A stretch of DNA of 64,000 bases from assembly GCF_001553455.1 (NCBI RefSeq), contig NZ_BBOX01000081.1, forward strand, positions 1 to 64,000. Reading direction: 5' to 3'. Numbering within the stretch: position 1 is the stretch's first letter; the number at the start of each line of letters is the position of its first letter. The DNA comes from Streptomyces hygroscopicus subsp. hygroscopicus (GTDB lineage: Bacteria; Actinomycetota; Actinomycetes; Streptomycetales; Streptomycetaceae). Positions 1,824 to 58,559 of the stretch are shown piece by piece. The notes beneath the pieces are model-generated. The model ran no database searches, was not told the DNA's origin, and was given only the letters and a program-made list of their open reading frames with translations. The translations under genes were made by a program, and so were the position numbers.

Positions 1824-2699
1824 CTATGGCTTTCCGTGCGGCTCGTCGGCGCGTCCACCGGCGCCCAGCAGCCCGGTGGGGCGCAGCGGTCGCTCGGCCT
1901 CCAGCCGTGGCAGTGTACGACGGGACACGCGCATCACGACCGGCGGCAGTGCGGCGCGCGCCACCTGGAGGAGGCGGAGCCACGCGGGCACGTAGAGCGC
2001 GGTGCGGCGCCGCTCCACGGCCTGCGCCAGCCGGCGGGCGACCACGTCCGCCTCGGAGACACGACGGATCGGTGGCGGCACATGGGAGCGCAGCGCACGC
2101 AGGGCGGCGGATGCGTCATCGCCGCGGATCATGTCGGTGTCGACCCAGTTGAGGTAGGCGATGCCGACCGCGACGCCGTGGTGCGCCACTTCGGCCCGCA
2201 GCGCGTGGACGAACGCCTCCACGCCCGCCTTGGACGCGCAGTAGGCGCTCATCATGGGAACGGCGCCGATCGACGCCAGCGACCCGATCTGGAGGAAGTA
2301 GCCGCGCGAGGCCATGAGGTCCGGGAGGAAGGTGTGCGCCGTAAGGGCGCTCGCACTGAGGTTGACGTCGATCACGCGGCGCCATACGGCCGGATCGGAC
2401 GCGGCGAACAGCCCGGCTTCCGCGACCCCCGCGTTCGCGACGACGGCCGAGGGGCGGCCCAGGCACCGACGCACCTCCTGGGCCGCGCTCTTCAGCGCGG
2501 TGTCGTCAGTGACATCGACCTCCAGGGCCAGCGCGGCGGTCGGCAGCGAGGCGGCCACCTCGTCCAGGCCCGGTTTCTCATGGCCGAGAAGTGCCGTCCT
2601 GGCGCCACGTCGGGCGAGGTCGCGCACCAGGGCCGCGCCCAGCCCGCGGGCGGCTCCGGTCACCACCACGGTCCGGTCCTCGAGCGGACTGCCTCCCAT
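1824..2699 (-). CDS. SDR-family NAD(P)-dependent oxidoreductase
   Basis: 291-residue classical short-chain dehydrogenase/reductase. Rossmann cofactor motif TGAARGLG at residues 14-21, NAG motif in VVANAGVAEAG, and catalytic Ser-Tyr-Lys in GSLASIG followed by YCASK. After the core, a basic C-terminal extension holds the hydrophobic AWLRLLQVARAALPPVVMRV, possibly membrane-associated. ATG 2699 is chosen because aaagggg lies about six bases upstream and the cofactor motif follows at the usual distance; an earlier GTG or ATG (to 2750) is open but has no clear ribosome site. Substrate unknown. Confidence 0.9.
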   Translation of the reverse strand: MGGSPLEDRTVVVTGAARGLGAALVRDLARRGARTALLGHEKPGLDEVAASLPTAALALEVDVTDDTALKSAAQEVRRCLGRPSAVVANAGVAEAGLFAASDPAVWRRVIDVNLSASALTAHTFLPDLMASRGYFLQIGSLASIGAVPMMSAYCASKAGVEAFVHALRAEVAHHGVAVGIAYLNWVDTDMIRGDDASAALRALRSHVPPPIRRVSEADVVARRLAQAVERRRTALYVPAWLRLLQVARAALPPVVMRVSRRTLPRLEAERPLRPTGLLGAGGRADEPHGKP

Positions 2700-2780
2700 G
2701 GCCGCCCCTTTCGTCACCGGGTTCCCACCGCAGTCGATGTGAGGGGTCACCGGGACTGATTCATCGCTTCGGTGATGTGT

Positions 2781-2919
2781 CGATCACGGCGGTTCGTCGA
2801 TCACGGCGATTCGTCGCTTCGATGGTTCGTCGCTCACAACGATTCGCCGCCTCCATGGTTCGTCGCTTACGACGATTCGCCGCCTCGATGATTCGCGATC
2901 ACGACGATTCGTCGGGGAT
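2781..2919. repeat. About 33-bp tandem repeat downstream of the FAD oxidoreductase gene
   Basis: Between the start of the SDR gene and the stop of the FAD oxidoreductase gene, a unit of about 33 bp recurs at 2807-2839, 2840-2872 and 2873-2904. Partial copies lie at 2781-2806 and from 2905. Each unit opens with cgattcg(t/c)cg and contains cttcgatgg or cctccatgg. The last bases run into the stop region of the neighbouring gene (gattcatcgccgg). The array can be read in several frames, but only as low-complexity Arg/Ser peptide. I regard it as noncoding. Confidence 0.85.
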
Positions 2920-4560
2920 TCATCGCCGGTCAGCGGGCGGGGGCGGCCGTCTGCCGAGCCGGTCGCGCCGGGCGAGCAGGCGCTGCGCCCCCGCCAGGCC
3001 CGGAGGCAGGTTCCGGCGCAGTGCGGCACGGGCGGCGTTGGCCCCCGGGGCGCCGTGGACCCCGCCGCCGGGGTGGGCACCGGCGGAGGCGAGGTACAGG
3101 CCACCCACCGGCGTCTCCGGCCGCCCGGTCCCGGGCAGCGGGCGGAAGACGACCTGCTGGTGGATATGGGCGGTGCCGCCGTTGATGGCGCCCCCGTACA
3201 GGTTGCCGTCGAGCGACTGGAGCGTGGGCGGGGCCAGGATGCGCCGGGAGCGGATCAGGGCCCGGAAGCCCGGCGCGAACCGTTCGACCTGACGTTCGAC
3301 ACGGTCGGCCATGACCTCCTGCTCCCTGGGGTCCCAGGTGCCCGTCAGGCCCTCCTCCGCGGCGTCGGCCGCTATCCGGTGGGGCACGTGGGTGTAGGCC
3401 CAGGCCGACTCGGTGCCCCGGGGCGACCGAGCGGGGTCCGCGGTCGTCATCTGGCCGAACAGCGCGAAAGGGCGGTCGGGGACGTGGCGCATGGCGATCT
3501 GCGCCGCGAACCGGGTGAGCTCGTCCAGCCCGTCGGCCAGGTGGACGGTACCGGCCCGCGCCGCCTCCTCGGCCTGCCACGGCACCGGTCCGCCCAGCGC
3601 CCAGTCCACCTTGAAGGTGGCGAAGTCCCACTGGAAGCGGCGCAGGTCGGACAGGAGGGACGGCGGCAGGTGCTCGGCCCCGACGAGCCGGCCGTACAGG
3701 GCGGGCACGGACACATCGGCGAGCACGGCACGCCGTGCGGCGACCGTCCCGCCCCCGGCGGTGCGCACCCCTCTGGCCCGTCCGGCGTGGACGATCACCC
3801 GATCGACGCGCTGTCCGCAGCGCAGCACCCCGCCGCGTGCCCGCAGCCGCCGGACCAGGGCCCCGACCAGGGCGCCCGAGCCGCCGACCGGGGCCGGGAA
3901 GCCGTAGGTCTGGCCGAGCATGGACATCAGCCAGCCGAATCCGCCGCTGCCCGCGGCCTCCGGAGCCAGGTCGGCGTGCAGGGCGTTTCCGGCCAGCAGC
4001 AGCCTGCCGCCCTCCCCCCGGAATTCCTCCTCCCCCAGCCGCCTCACCGGCAGCAGCATGGTGCGGGCCATGCGCAGCCCGCCCGCGCCCCGGAGCCGGA
4101 CGAAGAGCCGGGCCGCCGCCTTGACCGGGGGAAACGGCGTGAACAGGGCGTCCAGCACAGCCGGCCGGAGACGTTCCCACATCTCGTGCAACCGGCGCCA
4201 GGCGTCCCCGTCCCCCGCCGCGAAGCCGTCGAGGGAGCCCGCCGTGGCGTCGAGCGCGCGGTCGAGCAGTGCGCACCTGCCGTCGCTCAAGGGGTGGGCC
4301 AGCACGTGCGGCGCATGGCTCCACCGCAACCCGTGATCCTCCAGGTGGAGCCCGGCCACGACGGGGGAGGCGGCGGCAAGGGGGTAGAAGGAACTGAAGA
4401 CATCGTGGACGAAGTCGGGATGGACGCCCCTGTCGTGGCGCACGGCTCCGCCGGGTTCCGGCTGCTCCTCCAGGACCTCCACGCTCCAGCCCGCGTCGGC
4501 CAGCACATTGGCCGCCACCAGTCCGTTCGGCCCGGCCCCGATCACCACCGCGTCAGCCAC
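2920..4560 (-). CDS. FAD-dependent oxidoreductase, phytoene desaturase/amine oxidase type
   Basis: 546 residues from GTG 4560. The N-terminus carries the dinucleotide-binding fold VVIGAGPNGLVAANVLADAGW followed by LEEQPEPGGAVR, the hallmark of the phytoene-desaturase-like NAD(P)/FAD oxidoreductases. A second FAD-contact segment near the C-terminus reads GGLYLASAGAHPGGGVHGAPG. Length is usual for the family. The start overlaps the stop of the upstream SRPBCC gene by eight bases, so translation is probably coupled. Streptomyces genomes hold several such enzymes outside carotenoid clusters. No phytoene synthase is present here, so the substrate cannot be inferred. Confidence 0.88.
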   Translation of the reverse strand: MADAVVIGAGPNGLVAANVLADAGWSVEVLEEQPEPGGAVRHDRGVHPDFVHDVFSSFYPLAAASPVVAGLHLEDHGLRWSHAPHVLAHPLSDGRCALLDRALDATAGSLDGFAAGDGDAWRRLHEMWERLRPAVLDALFTPFPPVKAAARLFVRLRGAGGLRMARTMLLPVRRLGEEEFRGEGGRLLLAGNALHADLAPEAAGSGGFGWLMSMLGQTYGFPAPVGGSGALVGALVRRLRARGGVLRCGQRVDRVIVHAGRARGVRTAGGGTVAARRAVLADVSVPALYGRLVGAEHLPPSLLSDLRRFQWDFATFKVDWALGGPVPWQAEEAARAGTVHLADGLDELTRFAAQIAMRHVPDRPFALFGQMTTADPARSPRGTESAWAYTHVPHRIAADAAEEGLTGTWDPREQEVMADRVERQVERFAPGFRALIRSRRILAPPTLQSLDGNLYGGAINGGTAHIHQQVVFRPLPGTGRPETPVGGLYLASAGAHPGGGVHGAPGANAARAALRRNLPPGLAGAQRLLARRDRLGRRPPPPADRR

Positions 4561-5479: not shown

Positions 5480-6223
5480 TCAGCTCCAGCGGCCGGTGCG
5501 GCCCAGCAGCAGCGCGGCGGCCGCCGTTCCGGCCGTGGAGGTGCGCAGCACGCTCGGGCCCAGCCGGTACGGCCGTGCGCCCGCCTCGGCGAAGGCCGCC
5601 AACTCCTCGGGGGACACGCCCCCTTCGGGGCCGACGACCAGCACGATCCGGCCACTCGCGGGCAGGTGCGCCGTGGCGAGCGGTTCGCCGCCCTCCTCGT
5701 GGAGCACGGCCGCGAAATCGGCGTCGGCGAGCAGCCGGGCGACCTGCTTGGTCGTCATCGCGTCCATGACCTCGGGGAAGGTCAGCCGACGGGACTGCTT
5801 GCCCGCCTCGCGGGCGGTCGACCGCCACTTGCCGAGCGCCTTGAGGCCGCGCTCGCCCTTCCACTGCGTGATGCAGCGGGCGGCCGACCACGGAACGACG
5901 GCGTCCACGCCCGTCTCCGTCATGGTCTCCACCGCCAGCTCGCCCCGGTCGCCCTTGGGCAGCGCCTGGACGACGGTGATCCGCGGGTCCGGGGCCGTCT
6001 CCCGGCGCACCTCGTCCACCGCGACCTGGAGCCGGTCCTTGCCCTCGACGGCCGCCACGGTGCCCTGGACGCCCGTTCCGTGGCCGTCGGTCAGCACCAC
6101 CGGCTCCCCGACGCGCAGCCGCCTCACGGACACCGCGTGGCGCCCCTCGGGGCCCTCCAGCCAGACCCGGGCTCCCTCGGCCGCCCCCGCCAGGGAGTCG
6201 GCCACGAACACGGGGGCGGTCAC
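5480..6223 (-). CDS. rsmE: 16S rRNA (uracil-1498-N3)-methyltransferase RsmE
   Basis: 247-residue SPOUT-class methyltransferase modifying U1498 of 16S rRNA with S-adenosylmethionine. An N-terminal PUA-like domain (HAVSVRRLRVGEPVVLTDG) is followed by the knotted catalytic domain. Diagnostic C-terminal motifs are VVGPEGGVSPEELAAF and LGPSVLRTSTAGTAAAALLL, the latter corresponding to the usual LGxRILRxETA. Start GTG 6223 overlaps the stop of the upstream nitronate monooxygenase-like gene (6220) by four bases (GTGA type), implying translational coupling. Length matches the family. Confidence 0.95.
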   Translation of the reverse strand: MTAPVFVADSLAGAAEGARVWLEGPEGRHAVSVRRLRVGEPVVLTDGHGTGVQGTVAAVEGKDRLQVAVDEVRRETAPDPRITVVQALPKGDRGELAVETMTETGVDAVVPWSAARCITQWKGERGLKALGKWRSTAREAGKQSRRLTFPEVMDAMTTKQVARLLADADFAAVLHEEGGEPLATAHLPASGRIVLVVGPEGGVSPEELAAFAEAGARPYRLGPSVLRTSTAGTAAAALLLGRTGRWS

Positions 6224-7317
6224 GACACCGCACCCCGCTGGGGCTGAAGCCCCAACGCGCTCCGTGCCGCGTCGAGTTCCACCGCGAGCGTCTCCACCAG
6301 CCGCGCGGCGGGCAGCTCACGCGCCAGCCGGTGCCCCTGCCCGGCCCACAGCGCCATGCCCTGCGGATCGCCCGCCTTGGCGGCCGCCTTACGGAGGCCG
6401 GAGGTCATGTGGTGCAGCTGGGGGTAGGCGGCGGGCGCGTACGGGCCGTGCTCGCGCATGAAGCGGTTGACCAGGCCCCGGGCCGGGCGGCCGGAGAAGG
6501 CGCGGGTCAGCTCGGTGCGGCCGAACACCGGGTCCGTCATCGCCTGCTTGTGCAGGGCGTTCGCCCCGGACTCGGGGCACACCAGGAACGCGGTGCCCAG
6601 CTGGCCCGCGACCGCGCCCGCGGCGAGCGCCGCGGCGATCTGCGAACCGCGCATCATCCCGCCCGCCGCGATGATCGGGATCTGGACGTACTCCCGGACC
6701 AGCGTGATCAGGGACAGCAGGCCGATCCCGGCGCCCATCCCGTCGGCGGCCGGATCGTTGCCGTACGTGCCCTGGTGGCCGCCCGCCTCCACGCCCTGCA
6801 CACAGACGGCGTCGGCGCCCGCCCACTGGGCGGTCTGCGCCTCGACGGGCGAGGTCACGGTCACGACGGTGCGGGTGCCGACCGCGGCGAGGGCGTCGAG
6901 GACCGCGCGGGTCGGGCAGCCGAAGGTGAAGGAGACCACCGGAACCGGGTTGTCGAGGAGGACGGCCAGCTTGGCGTCGTAGGCGTCGTCCGAGCCCGCG
7001 TCCGGGTCGCCCAGCGAGGTTTCGTACCGTGCCGCCTCGCCCGTGAGCCGACCGCCGTAGGCCGCGACGGCGGCCGGGTCGGCGTTGGGCGGCTGCGGCA
7101 TGAAGAGGTTGACGCCGAAGGGCCGGTCGGTCAGCCCCCGCACCTGTTTGATCTCCTCGTACATCGCCTCCGGCGTCTTGTAGCCGGCGGCGAGGAAGCC
7201 GAGACCACCGGCCCCGGAGACGGTGGCGGCGAGCCGCGGGCAGGAGGCTCCACCTGCCATCGGCGCCTGCACGATCGGGTACCGGAAAAGGCCGGTCAGC
7301 GCGGAGGACATGGGCAC
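6220..7317 (-). CDS. Nitronate monooxygenase-family protein
   Basis: 365 residues. A TIM-barrel flavoprotein of the 2-nitropropane dioxygenase family: YPIVQAPMAGG at the N-terminus, PFGVNLFMPQ, VQGVEAGGHQGT (the conserved His/Gly phosphate-binding segment) and IIAAGGMMRGSQIAAALAAGA. Members oxidise alkyl nitronates with FMN, though some act on other substrates. Start GTG 7317 sits 11 bases after ggaggg; an in-frame ATG at 7311 is an alternative. Its last bases overlap rsmE. Streptomyces commonly carry this pairing; a functional link with rRNA methylation is not evident. Confidence 0.9.
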   Translation of the reverse strand: MPMSSALTGLFRYPIVQAPMAGGASCPRLAATVSGAGGLGFLAAGYKTPEAMYEEIKQVRGLTDRPFGVNLFMPQPPNADPAAVAAYGGRLTGEAARYETSLGDPDAGSDDAYDAKLAVLLDNPVPVVSFTFGCPTRAVLDALAAVGTRTVVTVTSPVEAQTAQWAGADAVCVQGVEAGGHQGTYGNDPAADGMGAGIGLLSLITLVREYVQIPIIAAGGMMRGSQIAAALAAGAVAGQLGTAFLVCPESGANALHKQAMTDPVFGRTELTRAFSGRPARGLVNRFMREHGPYAPAAYPQLHHMTSGLRKAAAKAGDPQGMALWAGQGHRLARELPAARLVETLAVELDAARSALGLQPQRGAVS

Positions 7318-7430
7318 ATCGTGTCACGCCCTCCGCATCGGCTCACCCTTGGACCACCGTCCGCCGAACGGCATCCTCCGGGCCTTGGCCGGAAGCGCCC
7401 ACCGCTCCCGGAGGCGTCCTCCGAGCGCCC

Positions 7431-7722
7431 ACCGCCCGGTGAACGCGCCCCCAAGGGCTCACCGCCGCTCGAAGGCGCCCGCACGAAGGCGCCGAGGCGC
7501 TCATCCCGACCGAACGCGTCCCCGAAGCGCCCACGCGCCCGGTGAACGCGTCCCGCAAAGGCTCACCGCCACTCGAAGGCGCCGAGGCGCTCATCCCGAC
7601 CGAAAGAAGCGTCCACCACCCGGTGACCGGCGTCCCCGAAGCGCCCACCGCACGGTGACCGGCGCGTGAACGGCGTCCCAAGGGCTCACCGTCCCCCGAG
7701 GCGCCTTCCCGCCTTACCACCG
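7431..7722. repeat. Tandem repeat array derived from the dnaJ 3' end
   Basis: The gap of about 400 bp between the nitronate monooxygenase-like start and the dnaJ stop holds no gene but a complex direct-repeat array. A 30-bp segment is exactly repeated at 7485-7514 and 7575-7604. A second element, caccgcccggtgaacgcg, recurs near 7431, 7531 and, altered, near 7611 and 7650. The same word, as taccgcccgttgaacgcg, forms the last coding bases and stop of dnaJ (7722-7740). The array therefore looks like repeated copies of the gene's own 3' end. Confidence 0.85.
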
Positions 7723-8856
7723 CTACCGCCCGTTGAACGCGTCCTTCAGGCGCGAGAACAGCCCCTGCTGCCCCGGTTTGAACTCGCCGGTCGGGCGCTC
7801 CTCACCGCGCAGCTTGGCCAGCCGCCGCAGCAGCTCCTCCTGCTCCGGGTCGAGCTTGCTCGGGGTGGTCACCTCGACGTGCACGATCAGATCGCCCCGG
7901 CCGCCGCCCCGCAGATGGGTGACGCCGCGCTGGTGCAGCGGGATCGACTGGCCGGACTGGGTGCCGGGCCGGATGTCGACCTCCTCCAGGCCGTCCAGCG
8001 TCTCCAACGGCACCTTGGTGCCCAGTGCCGCCGCCGTCATCGGGATGGTCACCGTGCAGTGCATGTCGTCGCCGCGCCGCTGGAAGACCGGGTGCGGGAC
8101 CTCGTGGATCTCCACATAGAGGTCGCCCGCCGGGCCGCCGCCCGGGCCGACCTCGCCCTCACCGGCCAGCTGGATCCTGGTGCCGTTGTCCACACCGGCG
8201 GGGATCTTCACGGTCAGGGTGCGCCGCGAGCGGATCCGGCCGTCGCCCGCGCACTCCGGGCACGGGGTCGGCACCACGGTGCCGAAGCCCTGGCACTGCG
8301 GGCACGGCCGCGAGGTCATGACCTGGCCCAGGAAGGACCGCGTCACCTGGGAGACCTCACCGCGGCCCCGGCACATGTCACAGGTCTGCGCCGAGGTGCC
8401 CGGCGCCGCGCCCTCGCCGCTGCACGTCGTACACACGACCGCGGTGTCGACCTGGATGTCCTTGGTGGTCCCGAACGCGGCCTCGCTGAGCTCCACATCG
8501 AGACGGATCATCGCGTCCTGACCGCGCCGGGTCCGGGACCGCGGACCGCGCTGCGAGGCGGTGCCGAAGAAGGCGTCCATGATGTCGGAGAAGTTGCCGA
8601 AGCCCGCGCCGAAGCCGCCGGCGCCACCGCCGCCCGCCCCGGACATCGGGTCCCCGCCCAGGTCGTAGACCTGCTTCTTCTGCGGGTCCGACAAGACCTC
8701 GTAAGCGGCGTTGATCTCCTTGAACCGCTCCTGGGTCTTCGGATCCGGATTCACGTCCGGATGCAGCTCGCGGGCGAGCCGGCGGAATGCCTTCTTGATC
8801 TGGTCCTGCGAGGCATCACGCGGCACGCCCAGGACTGCGTAGTAGTCCGTCGCCAC
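7723..8856 (-). CDS. dnaJ: Molecular chaperone DnaJ (DnaJ2 type)
   Basis: 377-residue Hsp40 co-chaperone that stimulates the DnaK ATPase. J domain (residues 1-70) with the HPD motif in ELHPDVNPD, Gly/Phe linker (GAGGGGAGGFGAGFGNF), four zinc-finger repeats CTTCSGEG, CDMCRGRG, CPQCQGFG and CPECAGDG, then the two substrate-binding beta domains. GTG start 8856 immediately follows the TAA stop of hrcA (8857-8859), with a ribosome site inside the hrcA end (ggcggag). It is thus the second gene of an hrcA-dnaJ operon under the CIRCE operator upstream. Its terminal bases resemble the repeat array beyond the stop. Confidence 0.97.
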   Translation of the reverse strand: MATDYYAVLGVPRDASQDQIKKAFRRLARELHPDVNPDPKTQERFKEINAAYEVLSDPQKKQVYDLGGDPMSGAGGGGAGGFGAGFGNFSDIMDAFFGTASQRGPRSRTRRGQDAMIRLDVELSEAAFGTTKDIQVDTAVVCTTCSGEGAAPGTSAQTCDMCRGRGEVSQVTRSFLGQVMTSRPCPQCQGFGTVVPTPCPECAGDGRIRSRRTLTVKIPAGVDNGTRIQLAGEGEVGPGGGPAGDLYVEIHEVPHPVFQRRGDDMHCTVTIPMTAAALGTKVPLETLDGLEEVDIRPGTQSGQSIPLHQRGVTHLRGGGRGDLIVHVEVTTPSKLDPEQEELLRRLAKLRGEERPTGEFKPGQQGLFSRLKDAFNGR

Positions 8857-9873
8857 TTACGACTCCGCCAGGATCTGTCCGACGTAACGTGCCACTGCGC
8901 GTACCGCTCCCATCGTTCCGGGGTAGTCCATGCGGGTCGGTCCGACCACGCCGAGTTTGGCGACCGCCTCGTCGCCGGAACCGTAGCCGACCGCGACGAC
9001 CGAGGTGGCGTTGAGCCCCTCGTGAGCATTCTCATGCCCGATGCGCACGGTCATCCCCGAGTCCTTGGCCTCGCCCAGCAGCTTGAGGAGGACGACCTGC
9101 TCCTCGAGCGCCTCCAGAACGGGCCGGATCGTCAGGGGGAAATCATGCACGAAACGCGTGAGGTTCGCGGTGCCGCCGATCATCAGCCGCTCCTCGGTCT
9201 CCTCCACCAGCGTCTCGAGCAAGGTCGACAACACGATCGAGACGGTCCCCCGGTCCTCCTGTTCGAAGGACTCCGGAAGATCCTGCACCAATTGCGGCAC
9301 ATCCGCGAAACGCCGCCCCACGACCCGGCTGTTGAGCCGGGCGCGCAGATCGGCCAGCGAGTCCTCGGTGACCGGCGCCGGGCAGTCGATCATGCGCTGC
9401 TCCACCCGCCCGGTGTCCGTGATCAACACCAGCATCACCCGCGCGGTGGCCAGCGGCAGCAGCTCCACATGGCGCACCGTGGATCGGGTCAGCGACGGGT
9501 ACTGCACGACCGCCACCTGCCGGGTCAGCTGCGCCAGCAGCCGGACCGTGCGGCCCACCACGTCGTCGAGGTCGACCGCACCGTCCAGGAAGTTCTGGAT
9601 GGCCCGCCGCTCCGGGCTGGACAGCGGCTTGACCCCGGCCAGCTTGTCCACGAAGAGGCGATAGCCCTTGTCCGTGGGGATCCGCCCGGCGCTCGTATGC
9701 GGCTGGGCGATGAAGCCCTCGTCCTCCAGAGCGGCCATGTCGTTGCGCACCGTGGCCGGGGAGACCCCCAGCCGGTGCCGCTCGGTGAGCGCCTTGGAGC
9801 CGACCGGCTCCTCCGTCCCCACATAGTCCTGGACGATGGCACGCAGCACCTCGAGTCTGCGTTCGCTGAGCAC
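8857..9873 (-). CDS. hrcA: Heat-inducible transcriptional repressor HrcA
   Basis: 338 residues, the usual Streptomyces length. It represses heat-shock genes by binding CIRCE inverted repeats. The N-terminal winged helix is visible in [21 protein letters not shown] and [33 protein letters not shown]; a GAF-like core follows. GTG 9873 is chosen because ggaggt lies seven bases upstream and the conserved [10 protein letters not shown] follows directly; the longer frame to 9921 would cross the operator. A CIRCE element 42 bases upstream indicates autoregulation. Last gene boundary: TAA then GTG of dnaJ with no gap. Confidence 0.96.
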
Positions 9874-9914
9874 CCCGCGCACCTCCAGTCCAGCGGTCTC
9901 ATCAGGTCGTCCGC

Positions 9915-9941
9915 CTGGCACTCACACGGCACGAGTGCCAG
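9915..9941 (-). promoter_or_regulatory. CIRCE operator (HrcA-binding inverted repeat)
   Basis: Perfect 9-bp inverted repeat ctggcactc, nine-base spacer, gagtgccag. The CIRCE consensus is ttagcactc-N9-gagtgctaa, so arm sequence and spacer length match except for the outer two or three bases, where G/C replaces A/T as is usual in this GC-rich genus. It lies 42 bases before the hrcA start, between a possible promoter and the gene, where repressor binding would block transcription. Confidence 0.93.
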
Positions 9942-22410: not shown

Positions 22411-25400
22411 CGCGGTCCAGCATCCCACGGACCACCGACAGCGCGGCCGTCCGGATGTCCGACAATGTTCCGGTGATCGATGAGGGACTGACTGGCGCCC
22501 GGCACCTGCTGGTGCTGCCCGACCGCGACGCGGCGGAGGAGGTGGCCGAGGCGCTGCCCGAGCGCTTCGGCGTCACCCAGGAGCCCCAGCTGGTGCGGGA
22601 CGCGCTGGCGGGCGAGGACGACGCCGAGGACGCCCAGTGGCTGGTGGTGGTCGAGGACCCGGCCGGGGAGCTGGACCCGGCGGCGCTGGACGCGTTCGCG
22701 GACGAGTACGACGGCTGGCTGGAGGCCGAATGGCCGGAATAGCCGGGTGCGTGGCCGACACCCGGCCACTGCCCGTCGCAGGCCGTCTGCCTCTTTCCCC
22801 CGGTGACCAGTTCCGTCGCGAACCCGTCGTACCCGCCCCCATTGACCAGCACCCTGACGAACCCGTCGTACCTGCCCCCGGTGACCAGCGCCCTGACGAA
22901 ACCGCCGTACCTGCCCCCGGTGACCAGCGCCCTGACGAAACCGCCGCACCCCGCCCCCAGTGGCCAGCGCCCTGACGAACCCGTCGCATCCCGCCCCCGG
23001 CGACCAGCGCCCTGACGAGACCGTCGCATCCCGCCCCCGGCGACCAGCGCCCTGACGAGACCGTCGCATCCCGCGCCCCGTGACCGGCGTCGGCACGGGC
23101 CCTTCCCGGCGCCGGCGCGGGTCATACGCGCCTAGCCCGTGACCAGTGCCAGCGCGAAGCCGTCGTACCCCTTTTCGCCGACGGTCTGTATCGCGGTGGC
23201 GGTCAGCCGCGGCTCCTCGGCGATCAGTTCGGTGAACCGCCGTACTCCCCGCACCTTCGGGTCGGTGCTCTCCGAGTCCGCCACGGCGCCGTCCCGCACC
23301 ACGTTGTCGCCGATGATCAGGCTGCCCGGCCGGGTGAGCCGCAGCGCCCACTCCAGGTAACCGGGGTTGTTGGGCTTGTCCGCGTCGATGAAGACCACGT
23401 CGAACGGGCCGACTCCCTCCTCGGCCAGCCGAGGCAGCGAGTCCAGCGCCGGGCCGGTGCGGATCTCGACCACGTTGCCCAGCCCGGCCCGTGCCACGTT
23501 GGCGCGCGCCACCTCCGCGCACTCCGGATCGGCCTCCAGCGAGATCAGCCGACCGTCCTCGGGCAGCGCCCTGGCCAGCCAGATGGTGCTGTAGCCGCCC
23601 AAGGTGCCGATCTCCAGGACGGTCCGCGCGCCCTGGATCCGGGCCAGCAACTGCAGCAGCTTGCCCTGGTTGGGGGCCACCTGATGCGGCGGCAGTCCCG
23701 AGGCCGCGCTGTGCTCCAAGGCCGCGTCCAGATCCGGGTCCGAGGGAGCCAGCAGGCCGTTGAAGTACGCGTCCACCTTGGTCCATTGCGCAAGCGACAT
23801 GAGTGCGCTTCCTTTCGGAATTGACAGAGTCTCCGAGGGGGAACCTACGCCGTCTGCGGCGTCGGCCGGCGGAATGTTCCGCGGCCCTGCCGCGGCCCCC
23901 GAGCACCGCGCGCAGCTCCGGGCCGCCCGTCACCGCGATCGGCCCATCGGTGTCGGTCCGCAGCACGGCGGCCCCTTGGGCCCGCAGGGAGGCGATCGTG
24001 CGGGGCGACGGATGGCCATAGGGGTTGTCGGCACCGCAGGAGATCAGGGCGAGGCGGGGCCGGATGCGCTGGAGCAGCCGTGGCTCCTGGTAGGCCGAGC
24101 CGTGGTGGGCCACCTTGAGCACATCGACCGCGGGGAGGGCGGGGTGTGCCGTCAGCAGGGACTGCTGGGCCGGGGGTTCGAGGTCGCCGAGGAGGAGCAG
24201 GGTCAGCCCGGCCGTACGGACCAGCAGGGTGACGCTCGCGTCGTTCGGCCCCTCGGCCACGGTCGGAGTGGACACGGGCGCGGGCCACAGGACCTCCCAG
24301 GACAGCGGGCCGAACCGGCGCCGCTCGCCCGGCACCGCCGGGACCACCGGGATCCGCGCCGACCGGGCCTGGCGCCGCACGAACTCGGCCTGACCGGGCG
24401 GCTCTTCCAGACCGGTCGTCTCAATGGCACCGACCGCGCGCCCGCGCAGCGCCCCGGTCAGCCCGGCCACATGGTCGGCGTGGAAGTGGGTGAGCACCAG
24501 AAGCGGGATCCGCACGACGCCCAGGGAACGCAGACAGCGGTCGACGGCCCGCGGCTCGGGTCCGGTGTCCACGACGACGGCCGTGCCGGGTCCCGCGGCC
24601 AGGACCAGGGCGTCGCCCTGCCCCACATCGCACGCCACCATCCGCCAACCGGGCGGTGGCCAGCCGGTGATGACCCGGGCCAGGGGTGCCGGACGCACGA
24701 CGGCCAGCAGCAACAGCAGCGCGCACACGGCGCACAGCAGTCGGTGGCGCAGCAACCGGCGGCCCGCGAGGACCACGGCCAGGGTGACGGCGGCCAGCAG
24801 CAGCCCGCCGGTCCAGCCGCCCGGCCAGTCCACCTCGGCGCCGGGCAGCGCCGCGCCGGTACGGGCCACCTGGGCGATCCATCCGGCGGGCCAACCCGCC
24901 GGCCAGGCGATCCACTCGGCGACGGGCGGCGCGACGGCGGCCACCGCGAGCGCGGCGAACCCGAGGACGGTGGCGGGGGCAACCGCCACCTCGGCGATGA
25001 GATTGCACGGGACGGCCACCAGACTGGCCCTCGCGGCCATCGCCACCACGACCGGTGCGCAGACCGCCTGGGCCGCGGCGGCGGCCGCCAGCGCCTCGGC
25101 CACCCGGGGCGGTACACCACGGCGCCGCAGGGCCGCGCTCCATCCCGGCGCGAAGGTGAGCAGCGCACCGGTGGCCAGCACGGAGAGCAGAAACCCGTAG
25201 CTCCGGGCCAGCCAGGGGTCGTAGAGCACCAGCGCGAGGACGGCGGCGGCCAGGGCCGGGAGCAGGGAGCGGCGGCGGCCGGTGCCGAGGGCGAGCAGCG
25301 TGATCAGCCCGCAGGCCGCGGCGCGCAGCACGCTGGGCTCGGGTCTGCAGACGATGACGAAGGCGAGCGTGAGCCCGCCGCCGAGCAGGGCGGTGGTCCG

Positions 25401-28654: not shown

Positions 28655-29500
28655 CTACCGCGGAGAGACCACCGCTCCCAGCAGCCCCGGTCCGGTGTGC
28701 GCCCCGATCACCGCGCCGACCTCGCTCACGTAGAGCTCCTCCAGCCCTGGCACCCGCTCCCGCAACCGCTCCGCGAGCGCCGCCGCCCGTTCGCCCGCCG
28801 CCAGATGCTGCACCGCGATGTCCACCGGGCTTCGCCCCGCCCGCTCCACCACGATCTCCTCGAGCCGGGCGATGGCCTTCGAGGCGGTGCGGACCTTCTC
28901 CCGCAGCTCGATCCGGCCCTCATCCAATTGGAGCAGCGGTTTGACCGCGAGCGCCGAGCCGAGCAGGGCCTGGGCCGCGCCGATGCGGCCGCCGCGCCGC
29001 AGATAGTCGAGGGTGTCGACGTAGAAGTAGGCGGCGGTGCCGTCGGCACGTTTCTCCGCCGCCGCCACGGCCTCGTCCAGCGTCCCGCCGCCCTCCGCCG
29101 TCTCGGCCGCCGCCAGCGCGCAGAAGCCGAGTGCCATCGCGACCATTCCGCTGTCCACCACCCGCACCGGAACGGGTGCGTCCTGCGCCGCGAGCACCGC
29201 CGCGTCATAGGTGCCGGAGAACTCGGCCGACAGATGCAGGGAGACGATGCCCGTCGCGCCCTCCTCGGCGGCGGCCCGGTAGGCGGCCGCGAACATCTCC
29301 GGACTGGGCCGGGACGTCGTCACCGACTTGCGCTTCTGCAACGCCTGCGCGAGGGACCGGGCCGAGATCTCGGTGCCTTCCTCCAGCGCCCGGTCTCCGA
29401 GCACCACCGTCAGCGGTACGGAGGTGATGCGATGCCGCTCCATCGCATCCGGCGGCAAGTAAGCCGTGGAATCGGTCACGATCGCGACATGGCGGGACAT
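28655..29500 (-). CDS. DegV family protein (fatty-acid-binding)
   Basis: 281 residues. DegV/FakB fold: begins SRHVAIVTDSTAYLP, with TSRPSPEMFAAAYRAAAEEGATGIVSLHLSAEFSGTYDAA (the conserved TSQPSP-like and SSxLSGTY-like motifs), VVDSGMVAMALGF and DTLDYLRRGGRIGAAQALLG. FakB proteins present fatty acids to a FakA-type kinase; no FakA is seen here. ATG 29500 is chosen at the family start; a longer frame to 29575 would enter the repeat region. Confidence 0.93.
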   Translation of the reverse strand: MSRHVAIVTDSTAYLPPDAMERHRITSVPLTVVLGDRALEEGTEISARSLAQALQKRKSVTTSRPSPEMFAAAYRAAAEEGATGIVSLHLSAEFSGTYDAAVLAAQDAPVPVRVVDSGMVAMALGFCALAAAETAEGGGTLDEAVAAAEKRADGTAAYFYVDTLDYLRRGGRIGAAQALLGSALAVKPLLQLDEGRIELREKVRTASKAIARLEEIVVERAGRSPVDIAVQHLAAGERAAALAERLRERVPGLEELYVSEVGAVIGAHTGPGLLGAVVSPR

Positions 29501-29606
29501 GACTGGGAGGTTATCGGTGGAGGGAGTCCGCTCACAGCGCGACCCCAGCGGATGATCAATTGCCTTTCCGATCATGCCCTGTTCAGACGTGGCTCAGCTT
29601 CCTGTT

Positions 29607-29750
29607 CTCAGATCGGGTTCTCGGCGTGCTCAGACCCGGCTCTCAGCTTTCTCAGGCCGGGTCCTCGGCGTGCTGACCGGGCTCTCGCCGTTCTCAGGCC
29701 GGGCTCTCGGCGTGCTGACCGGGCTCTCGCCGTTCTCAGGCCGGGTTCTC
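29607..29750. repeat. 42-bp tandem repeat that includes the stop of the adjacent gene
   Basis: Copies begin at ctcagg 29651, 29693 and 29735 (period 42), with a diverged copy at 29607. The copy at 29735 contains the TGA stop and last codons of the membrane-protein gene that ends at 29736. The others repeat the same end (ccgagagcccggcctgag on the minus strand) with one or two changes. The gap to the degV start (29501-29606) contains no gene. Confidence 0.9.
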
Positions 29751-30533
29751 GGGGCGGGTGGGCTCCTGCCAGGGCTTCTGCCAGGAGTTCTGCCACGTAC
29801 GGGGCTCCGTCGGCGTCGCTCCGAGCGCGGGCGGGGACGGGGGCGACTCCGGCTCCCTCCCCGCCTCGGGCCCCGTCCGCGGCCCCGGTTCAGGGGTCAG
29901 CCGGGCCTCCGCCTCGGGCGTCGGCCGGGCCCCCGCCCCAGGCCCCGGCGCCTCCGTCCCCGGCGTCTCCGTCCGCGGACCCTCCGGCTCCGCCGCCGTC
30001 CAGTGCCGCAGCGCCCCGGTCTCCAGCTCGATCTCGCGGCCCAGCGAGTCCAGATCGTCGTGTGCCAACCGCTGTGTCCGCTCCTGCACCGCCCAGCGCA
30101 GCGAGTCGGCGGAGTGGGTGATCCGCTGCGTACGCTGCCGCAGCTCGGGCAGCAGGGCCGCGATACGGGCCTTGTCGGGCTCCTGCTCCAGCCGCTTCAG
30201 ATCCGCGTCCAGATCCTGCGCATGCGCGCTCAGCCGCTGGAACAGGCCCAACGACTCCGAGAGGGAGCGGTCTTGCGGGGCGGCTGCCTGGAGCGCCTGC
30301 TCGGTGGCGCGCATCGAGCCGCGCAGGGAGAGCCGTAGCTGGGCGAGGTCACCGGCCGCGCCCGGCTGGGCGAGCTGCCGGGCCCGGAGTCTGGTCTCCT
30401 CCACCGTGCGGCGGGCCTGGTGCACGGTGCGGTCGATACCGCGCTTGGCCGCCCTGACCGTTCGCACGGCCGCGTAGACACCCAGCAGCATGATCAACAC
30501 GAAAAGCAGCAACAGGATCCAGATGGCTTCCAT
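29736..30533 (-). CDS. Membrane-anchored coiled-coil protein of unknown function
   Basis: 265 residues from ATG 30533. A membrane segment at the extreme N-terminus (EAIWILLLLFVLIMLLGVYAAV) is followed by a long heptad-like, Arg/Glu/Gln-rich helical region (residues 30-180) and a Pro/Glu/Thr-rich tail. It resembles small Streptomyces proteins with a TM anchor and cytoplasmic coiled coil; no catalytic motif. Its terminal bases are reiterated downstream. Located between degV and leuS. Confidence 0.8.
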   Translation of the reverse strand: MEAIWILLLLFVLIMLLGVYAAVRTVRAAKRGIDRTVHQARRTVEETRLRARQLAQPGAAGDLAQLRLSLRGSMRATEQALQAAAPQDRSLSESLGLFQRLSAHAQDLDADLKRLEQEPDKARIAALLPELRQRTQRITHSADSLRWAVQERTQRLAHDDLDSLGREIELETGALRHWTAAEPEGPRTETPGTEAPGPGAGARPTPEAEARLTPEPGPRTGPEAGREPESPPSPPALGATPTEPRTWQNSWQKPWQEPTRPENPA

Positions 30534-56530: not shown

Positions 56531-56626
56531 GGACAACCGCCTCACCGGCCCGCTGGACAGCTGCCTCACCGACCCGGCGGGCGGGCGGCCACCGCACCGG
56601 CAGGGCGGGCGGCCACCGCACCGGCG
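56531..56626. repeat. 24-bp tandem repeat between two radical-SAM genes
   Basis: Units ggacaaccgcctcaccggcc (56531) and ggacagctgcctcaccgacc (56555) are followed by two copies of gcgggcggccaccgcaccgg (56581, 56605), period 24. Part of the sequence resembles the last bases of the adjacent B12-radical-SAM gene (tcggtga(a/g)g(t/c)agc on the minus strand). Confidence 0.75.
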
Positions 56627-56636
56627 CGGTGACCCG

Positions 56637-58559
56637 CTACTTCACCGACAGCGGAAGCAGCTTCCGGCCGGTGGGGCCGATCTGGATCTCGGTCTGCATC
56701 TGCGGGCAGACGCCGCAGTCGAAGCAGGGGGTCCAGCGGCAGTCCTCGACCTCGGTCTCGTCCAGGGAGTCCTGCCAGTCCTCCCACAGCCAGTCCTTGT
56801 CGAGGCCCGAGTCGAGGTGGTCCCAGGGCAGAACCTCCTCGTAGGTGCGCTCGCGGGTGGTGTACCAGTCCACGTCGAGGCCGAACGCGGGCAGGGTCCG
56901 CTCGGCGCACTCCATCCACCGGTCGTACGAGAAGTGCTCCCGCCAGCCGTCGAAGCGGCCGCCGTCCTCGTAGACGGCGCGGATGACCGCGCCCACCCGG
57001 CGGTCACCGCGCGAGAGCAGCCCCTCGACGATGCCGGGCTTGCCGTCGTGGTAGCGGAAGCCGATGGAGCGGCCGTACTTCTTGTCGCCGCGGATCTTGT
57101 CGCGCAGTTTCTCCAGCCGGGCGTCGGTCTCCTCGGCGCTCAGCTGCGGCGCCCACTGGAAGGGGGTGTGCGGCTTGGGGACGAAACCGCCGATCGAGAC
57201 GGTGCAGCGGATGTCGTTCTTGCCGGACACCTCGCGGCCCTTGGCGATGACCTTGGTCGCCATGTCGGCGATCTGGAGCACATCGTCGTCGGTCTCGGTG
57301 GGCAGACCGCACATGAAGTACAGCTTCACCTGCCGCCAGCCGTTGCCGTAGGCGGTGGCCACCGTACGGATGAGGTCCTCTTCCGAGACCATCTTGTTGA
57401 TGACCTTACGGATGCGCTCACTGCCGCCCTCGGGGGCGAAGGTGAGGCCGGAGCGGCGCCCGTTGCGGGTCAGCTCATTGGCGAGGTCGATGTTGAAGGC
57501 GTCCACCCGGGTGGAGGGGAGGGACAGGCCGATCTTGTCCTCCTCGTACCGGTCGGCGAGGCCCTTGGCGATGTCGCCGATCTCGGTGTGGTCGGCGGAG
57601 GACAGCGACAGCAGCCCGACCTCCTCGAAGCCGGTGGCCTTCAGCCCCTTGTCGACCATCTCGCCGATACCGGTGATCGACCGCTCGCGCACGGGGCGAG
57701 TGATCATGCCCGCCTGGCAGAAGCGGCAGCCGCGGGTGCAGCCGCGGAAGATCTCCACCGACATCCGCTCATGGACGGTCTCGGCCAGCGGCACCAGCGG
57801 CTGCTTCGGGTACGGCCACTCGTCGAGGTCCATGACGGTGTGCTTGGACACCCGCCACGGCACACCCGAGCGGTTCGGCACGACACGTGAGATCCGCCCG
57901 TCGGCCAGGTACTCCACGTCGTAGAACTTCGGGACGTAGACGCCGCCGGTGCGGGCGAGACGGAAGAGCAGTTCGTCGCGGCCGCCCGGACGGCCCTCGG
58001 CCTTCCAGGCGCGGACGATCTCGGTCATGTCGAGCACGGCCTGCTCGCCGTCGCCGATCACCGCGCAGTCGATGAAGTCCGCGATCGGCTCCGGGTTGAA
58101 CGCGGCATGGCCGCCCGCGACCACGACGGGGTGGTCCTCGGTGCGGTCCACGGCGTCCAGGGGAATGCCGGCGAGGTCGAGCGCGGTGAGGAGGTTGGTG
58201 TACCCCAGCTCGGTCGAGAAGGAGACGCCGAAGACGTCGAACGCCGACACCGGGCGGTGCGAATCCACGGTGAACTGCGGCACCTTGTGCTCGCGCATCA
58301 GCTCCTCGAGGTCCGGCCACACGCTGTAGGTGCGCTCGGCGAGCACGCCCTCGCGCTCGTTGAGGACCTCGTAAAGAATCATGACGCCCTGGTTGGGCAG
58401 GCCCACCTCATAGGCGTCCGGGTACATCAGCGCCCAGCGGACGTCGCAGGAGTCCCACTCCTTGACGGTGGAATTGAGCTCACCGCCTACGTACTGGATG
58501 GGCTTCTGCACATGCGGCAGCAGGGCCTCGAGCTGTGGGAAGACCGACTCGACAGACAT
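56637..58559 (-). CDS. TIGR03960 family B12-binding domain radical SAM protein
   Basis: 640 residues from ATG 58559. B12-binding-like Rossmann N-domain (VRWALMYPDAYEVGLPNQGVMILYEVLNEREGV), then radical SAM cluster motif CTRGCRFCQAGM, LTFAPEGGSERIRKVINKMVSEEDL and FMCGLPTETDDDVLQIADM; the C-terminus has a further Cys pair CFDCGVCPQ. In other bacteria this polypeptide is often joined to the DUF2344 protein encoded by the next gene. Function unknown; the gene pair is widely conserved in actinobacteria near rne. Confidence 0.92.
   Translation of the reverse strand: MSVESVFPQLEALLPHVQKPIQYVGGELNSTVKEWDSCDVRWALMYPDAYEVGLPNQGVMILYEVLNEREGVLAERTYSVWPDLEELMREHKVPQFTVDSHRPVSAFDVFGVSFSTELGYTNLLTALDLAGIPLDAVDRTEDHPVVVAGGHAAFNPEPIADFIDCAVIGDGEQAVLDMTEIVRAWKAEGRPGGRDELLFRLARTGGVYVPKFYDVEYLADGRISRVVPNRSGVPWRVSKHTVMDLDEWPYPKQPLVPLAETVHERMSVEIFRGCTRGCRFCQAGMITRPVRERSITGIGEMVDKGLKATGFEEVGLLSLSSADHTEIGDIAKGLADRYEEDKIGLSLPSTRVDAFNIDLANELTRNGRRSGLTFAPEGGSERIRKVINKMVSEEDLIRTVATAYGNGWRQVKLYFMCGLPTETDDDVLQIADMATKVIAKGREVSGKNDIRCTVSIGGFVPKPHTPFQWAPQLSAEETDARLEKLRDKIRGDKKYGRSIGFRYHDGKPGIVEGLLSRGDRRVGAVIRAVYEDGGRFDGWREHFSYDRWMECAERTLPAFGLDVDWYTTRERTYEEVLPWDHLDSGLDKDWLWEDWQDSLDETEVEDCRWTPCFDCGVCPQMQTEIQIGPTGRKLLPLSVK

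Follow-up and report, generated by a model that had tools for sequence, protein, structure and literature searches.

Bacterial minisatellites, or VNTR arrays, consist of degenerate head-to-tail units that lie in intergenic gaps and differ between relatives. The MIRU of mycobacteria are short repeats at gene junctions, which may overlap a stop codon and have one sequence common to their loci. In a third kind of system, that of the integrative elements found at the 3' ends of tRNA or other genes, the end of the gene is repeated beyond the insert and the gene itself stays whole. The array that lies behind dnaJ in the Streptomyces DNA studied here resembles a minisatellite, with degenerate head-to-tail units of a period of about 30 in a gap, varying between relatives, but it differs in that its unit can be traced to a stop-codon junction and to the flank that sister species have kept there. 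Like the MIRU, it is made of short repeats at a gene junction, possibly overlapping the stop codon; however, MIRU are one sequence across loci, whereas the Streptomyces arrays each carry the end of their own gene. The dnaJ array is an object of an ordinary kind, whose origin is unusually clear.

The window, by which we mean the whole stretch of DNA analysed, covers the initial 64 kb of a contig of 68 kb. Its minus strand carries, in this order, hrcA (8857-9921), the heat-shock gene dnaJ (7723-8856; 377 amino acids, stop codon TAG at 7723-7725; Pfam DnaJ, DnaJ_C and DnaJ_CXXCXGXG, NCBIfam PRK14278), a gap of 405 bp, a nitronate monooxygenase-like gene (6220-7317; Pfam NMO, E 1.3e-108) and an rsmE-like gene (5480-6223). 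Most of the gap is a degenerate tandem array on the minus strand with a unit of about 30 nt, present in about 12 to 15 copies (12 by eye, 14.8 in a wrapped alignment); these are head-to-tail copies of one unit above chance, as in a minisatellite. Tandem Repeats Finder reported only a 14-nt row of 2.1 copies at the gap, presumably because the copies of the array are too worn, and a repeat finder gave families with spacings such as 30, 90, 102-104, 114 and 227. The original prediction had pointed to an exact 30-bp repeat, which is indeed present at 7485-7514 and 7575-7604 on the plus strand, by both repeat finder and word count, with none expected (100 shuffles). It had also counted three to four copies, within the gap, of the word that ends dnaJ (7724-7741). 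One exact match exists, at 7430-7447, but the full number does not: with up to three mismatches allowed, the gap holds two sites, 7430-7447 (no mismatch) and 7533-7550 (three mismatches), and the whole window four matches, including the gene's own copy and one chance site, against 0.8 expected. The span of 7431-7742 first given to the repeats covers part of the array and is too short at its low end, the array extending from about 7349 to 7722, next to the dnaJ stop codon at 7723-7725.

Read on the coding strand, the gap is composed of units of about 30 nt like GACGCGTTCACCGGGCGGTGG GCGCTTCGG. The first 21 nt of the unit are the end of dnaJ (7723-7743, minus strand), with TGG in place of the stop codon TAG. 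The remaining nine do not occur beside dnaJ in the window; in the dnaJ 3' regions of other Streptomyces, the sister species L033 and L004 have exactly TAG followed by GCGCTTCGG. Two clear copies of the unit, at 7635-7664 and 7419-7448 on the minus strand, are each identical to the stop-codon junction of L033 at 22 of 30 positions. We scored against the array all 30-mers of each sister dnaJ and its 60-nt flank (1164 per sister, 1167 in L003), leaving aside the window's own flank. The best 30-mers started 21 to 22 nt before the end of the gene in L033 (122), L004 (120) and L005 (116), with gene-body 30-mers at means of about 90 (standard deviation about 6); the best start was -18 in L032 (117) and -29 in L003 (115), the flank of which differs. 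The unit thus resembles the neighbouring gene end more closely than it does the remainder of dnaJ.

The second half of the unit was assessed by fixing the dnaJ tail of the window and taking the 9-nt flank from each of 110 dnaJ loci, our own included, which are the best 30 of a 150-genome search and the best 80 of 593 candidates and are therefore chosen by similarity, not at random. The top two flanks were those of the sisters L033 and L004 (126), a narrow lead over L010 (125) and L053 (123), neither of them a close relative of the window strain; the flank of L005 came fifth (122). A score of 126 was reached by 2 of 500 shuffled flanks and by none of 1074 other dnaJ 21-mers joined to that flank. 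These comparisons show what the unit is and that it contains the flank beyond the stop codon as the sisters have kept it. Since its second part is this flank, the original claim that the array repeats the 3' end of dnaJ is borne out on stronger support than could first be given. The flank now directly after dnaJ in the window, CGGTGGTAAGG, has no match to the unit, so that the first copy and the array must have diverged or been rearranged.

The likeness between gene end and array is well beyond chance, the outcome on which the original prediction had staked itself. The six best ungapped placements of the tail-plus-flank unit sum to 126, against a mean of 93.4 (standard deviation 3.1, maximum 105) for 300 dinucleotide shuffles of the array. 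In a wrapped alignment the 30-mer extends over gap positions 9 to 397 of 405 as 14.8 units, with many gaps and 310 of 363 aligned bases identical, and scores 279; the null maxima were 165 for 154 other dnaJ 30-mers, 170 for 150 shuffled units and 123 for 100 simple shuffles of the gap. Against 100 dinucleotide shuffles of the gap the score was 277, with a maximum of 139. The last stretch of this alignment, 7318-7348, is by eye a leader of the next gene similar in the sister species L032 and L033, and we therefore place the array at 7349-7722. The plain dnaJ tail, lacking the flank, scores 218 against the gap; the best of 91 inner segments, compared at the same periods, scores 190, and none reaches the tail.

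We consider it very probable that the array arose by neutral tandem duplication of a segment of about 30 bp spanning the dnaJ stop codon, extended by slippage or unequal exchange. As to the replication or recombination steps and their order, we infer that in an ancestor of the strain a segment across the stop (21 nt of coding end and 9 nt of 3' flank) would have been tandemly duplicated, that repeated slippage or unequal exchange combined with point mutation would have led to the present array of about 370 bp, and that a later step of 90 bp would have left the exact 30-bp pair, whose copies lie 90 bp apart and are likely a younger duplication. The extra copies would be free, because the first copy retains the reading frame and the stop. 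When a duplication runs across the stop codon, the gene in front stays whole and the copy behind it is useless, so that such an event would pass selection where most duplications within a gene would not. The array is probably without selected function, and the dnaJ gap shows cleanly, by comparison with relatives, how an intergenic array may start at a stop-codon junction, where duplication would cost nothing. No homologous array was recognised in the other 391 of 392 Streptomyces genomes, a search of limited sensitivity in which two candidates were scored per genome, and it is absent from the sister loci inspected (one genome per species). Short, weak hits to the DNA of the gap, of about 24 to 92 bases, occur in 88 of the 391, and are not near dnaJ in those genomes in which the place of dnaJ was located.

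The same 110 loci were scanned for copies of the dnaJ tail in the gap, taken as the first 400 nt after the gene, which may include the start of the next gene. The scores were two-humped: 21 loci reached at least 91 of 120, one more scored 46, and several had short copies, among them the window (31). Scores of 30 or more were obtained at none of the 110 loci with the reverse complement, at 8 with the best of eight upstream 60-mers and at 2 with the best of 40 shuffles; no control reached 40. Once one duplicate locus was removed, the remaining 109 comprised 21 with a long copy, 8 with a short one and 80 with no dnaJ tail copy. At the long-form loci, a hairpin follows the gene, and downstream of it stands a copy of the last 54 to 60 nt of dnaJ. 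The hairpin pattern was detected in 19 of these 21 against 3 of the 88 others, and the remaining two (L037 and L052) have a variant of it by eye. Fifteen of the 21 copies are closer to the dnaJ end of their own species than to the copy of any other (3 ties, 3 opposite), and the long form changes at least 17 times on the dnaJ tree. At 14 of the 21 loci, the sequence behind the last copy found is a better fit to the flank of the nearest copy-free species than is the flank directly after the gene (11 against 1 at a score of 40 or more), so that the hairpin with one tail copy looks like a module gained or lost. Tandem rounds of gene tail and hairpin are seen at L003, L018, L078, L102, L125, L221 and L278; at the first five of these, the series ends, by eye, with a tail copy that no full hairpin follows.

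In the clade of six to which the window belongs (support 100), L003, L004, L005 and L032 have the hairpin form, L033 has no tail copy and the window has the array. The array may accordingly be asked to derive from an older duplication of hairpin plus tail, the hairpin being lost by recombination among tail copies and the short tail units then multiplied, a variant that is partly compatible with duplication of the stop-codon junction. That four of the five nearest sampled relatives have the hairpin form at dnaJ, and that L032 has an additional short tail copy, are in keeping with it. However, the gap of the window has no match to the hairpin at up to three mismatches, and its profile score of -33 falls inside the shuffle range (mean -40, maximum -14), so that a hairpin remnant there was rejected; moreover, the part of dnaJ from -60 to -24, present in the long copies, did not turn up in the gap (score 18). 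We therefore view this variant as possible but rather doubtful, and retain direct duplication of the junction as the preferred reading.

The hairpin recurs in the genus beyond dnaJ. Of 61 Streptomyces genomes, 17 contained its exact core, and the reversed control gave no match. A model of 42 positions built from 38 sequences was found, at E 0.01 or better, in 39 of 41 Streptomyces genomes, each with 1 to 18 matches (0 to 18 over all 41). A single weak match (E 0.006) was obtained in the genome of the window itself. At the level of the class, there were matches at 1e-4 in 13 of 118 genomes, of which seven lie outside the genus of the window; the sequence after the hairpin differs at the nine loci inspected outside the genus, three of which show a duplication (score of 30 or more). 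In other genera of the class, L292, L295 and L296 have hairpins like it, whose flanks are duplicated and whose 3' edge differs. That hairpins stand at orthologous sites in several species suggests, from the sequences compared, old insertions that were kept alike. Rfam gave no family match for the hairpin in ten loci, and one hairpin element used as query had no match in plasmid and phage records.

A neighbouring stretch is duplicated across the element in 41 of 80 distinct Streptomyces elements at a score of 30 or more, against 17 of 80 for the best of ten swaps, some of which were between orthologous sites; at 40 or more, the counts are 38 and 8. The downstream copy starts at element position 38-41, the 3' edge, in 29 of the 41. 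At a cut of 34, 40 elements are duplicated, 33 of the 37 with a same-strand gene ending nearby upstream and 7 of the 43 others (p 4e-11, although the elements are not independent: their loci are partly orthologous, with about 19 distinct sites among the 40). In 26 of these 40, the copied stretch contains a stop codon. At L267, L279 and L233 the hairpin is flanked on both sides by a copy of the tRNA-Lys (ctt) 3' end. The end of the upstream gene is copied on the far side of the hairpin at L116, L119, L121-L123, L125, L127, L133 and others, as well as at the dnaJ loci L003-L005, L032, L043 and L102; in the coupled gene pairs L116, L119, L121 and L123 the copy runs into the start of the next gene. 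At L129 (about 1440-1575) the gene end and its counterpart after the hairpin differ in most codons but specify almost the same residues, a pattern not shared by the other sites inspected. A search over at most 1.5 kb upstream (less in some loci) for a longer hairpin element able to move by itself, whose tail copy would lie further upstream, found none. Among 39 elements with no detected duplication, only L227 exceeded its own shuffles (29 against 24), and its match lies only 53 nt upstream, so that it is not such a long version.

The hairpin resembles REP and BIME palindromes and small stem-loop families in being a short palindrome at several gene ends, but differs from REP and BIME in its 0 to 18 model matches per genome and in the duplicated gene end alongside. 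It is nearer to MIRU than the arrays are, in that one sequence recurs across loci. With integrative elements it shares the repetition of the gene end on the far side of the insert and the intact gene; unlike them, the insert measures tens of bases, and the one element compared with phage and plasmid records had no match. A tentative possibility, which we put forward with less than even confidence, is that these elements form an undescribed Streptomyces family of tiny hairpins, mobile now or in the past (CGGCCGGGGGTCCGGGGGTTGTCCCCCGGGnnGnCACAG followed by C). Where such a hairpin lies in sense behind a gene, a copy of the end of that gene, mostly of 20-100 nt, would typically adjoin its 3' edge, for protein genes and tRNA-Lys alike; the upstream stop and the start of a coupled next gene would stay intact, the copies would tend to stay alike within species, and the dnaJ array of the window would have arisen late at an unstable site of this kind. 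Term searches of two surveys (PMC2267715 and PMC12306157) returned no mention of Streptomyces, and no description of this hairpin or of an array of the dnaJ end was found in the literature covered, which excludes most subscription journals and preprints. If it is true that the hairpin moves or once moved, it would represent a class of small elements with long and variable duplications. Its sites offer a natural system in which to study exchange between a live gene end and its relic. The hairpin with its gene-end copies, recurrent across the genus, is the part that merits separate study.

A role of the array for the dnaJ mRNA was also considered, since the original prediction had proposed that the repeats could alter the mRNA end. 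The array would then be a selected 3' element of the dnaJ message, that is, a stabiliser, a processing site or an attenuator before the monooxygenase gene. Its position behind hrcA-dnaJ would suit such a role, and it folds somewhat better than its shuffles (z -2.39, 2 of 100 as good); however, repeated sequence may inflate folding scores, and the RNA evidence for a function is weak. The terminator scan of the array gave one weak site against 0.6 expected, which is chance level, and at the gathering score Rfam recognised only two tRNAs in the whole window, neither near the array. We therefore rejected the array as a terminator or RNA element. The array was, moreover, not found in the other 391 genomes searched, and 80 of 109 dnaJ loci have no tail copy. 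We judge a selected mRNA element to be quite unlikely, and an altered mRNA end or other role for the dnaJ message is unsupported by anything found.

Tandem arrays are common in Streptomyces gaps, with a density per 10 kb of noncoding DNA of 5.5 in this genome, 4.9 in its relative G069 and 7.6 in G031. The density of this genome is ordinary, and an array-rich genome was rejected as a cause. Such abundance could be taken to mean that the dnaJ array is low-complexity, high-GC sequence with a chance likeness to the gene end, but the shuffle, inner-segment, flank, word-count and wrapped-alignment nulls speak against it, and the flank match in sister species does so strongly, which makes this reading highly improbable. 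Equally improbable is a protein-coding role, as an extension or as a small gene. A frame of 125 codons is indeed open through the array (7343-7720, minus strand), but it differs from the frame of dnaJ, the array was not found in other genomes searched, long open frames would be expected at this GC, and Pfam and NCBIfam gave no match, on which ground the small-gene reading was rejected.

Two further gaps of the window, both on the minus strand, look as if their arrays were born in the same way as the preferred reading has it for dnaJ. In the gap at 22743-23131, behind an O-methyltransferase gene (23132-23776), the array matches the end of that gene, as a unit of 39 nt, better than any of 46 inner segments tested at the same periods (247 against 159), in agreement with the parallel originally drawn between this case and dnaJ. 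The weaker case is the gap at 29444-29735, where the array matches the end of the gene at 29736-30533 better than 60 inner segments (134 against 97). The last 40 nt of each gene were compared with its own downstream gap at a score of 28 or more, over 618 kb of this genome; genes outside the window were called by a simple codon-bias caller, which misses genes. Own tails were copied in 7 of 320 gaps, against 2 of 1600 for swapped tails (p 9e-5) and 1 of 320 for reverse complements; the differences from inner segments (7 of 960, p 0.055) and from gene starts (2 of 320, p 0.18) are not significant. The corresponding counts for own and swapped tails were 2 of 214 (one of them dnaJ) and 1 of 1070 in G069, and 5 of 224 and 12 of 1120 in G031. 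When the three genomes are pooled, tails exceed swapped tails (p 7e-5) and, modestly, inner segments (14 of 758 against 18 of 2274, p 0.02) and gene starts (14 of 758 against 4 of 775, p 0.02).

In a second genome-wide test, by wrapped alignment, the mean scores of tails and inner segments did not differ and there were few outliers only. In this genome they were 3 of 232 tails and 4 of 696 inner segments; the corresponding counts were 4 of 163 and 3 of 489 for G069, and 2 of 181 and 3 of 543 for G031. The dnaJ gap of the window, compared there with the plain tail, scored 0.522, just below the threshold of 0.578, so that the dnaJ case rests on its own tests and not on a genome-wide rate. The birth of arrays at gene ends is real, yet uncommon. 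Two other gaps of this genome, in L363 (gene 2498-3319) and L154 (gene 1657-2925), open with near copies of the end of the upstream gene, as does a gap in the G031 stretch L332-L335 (gene 56556-57098 of the joined stretch).
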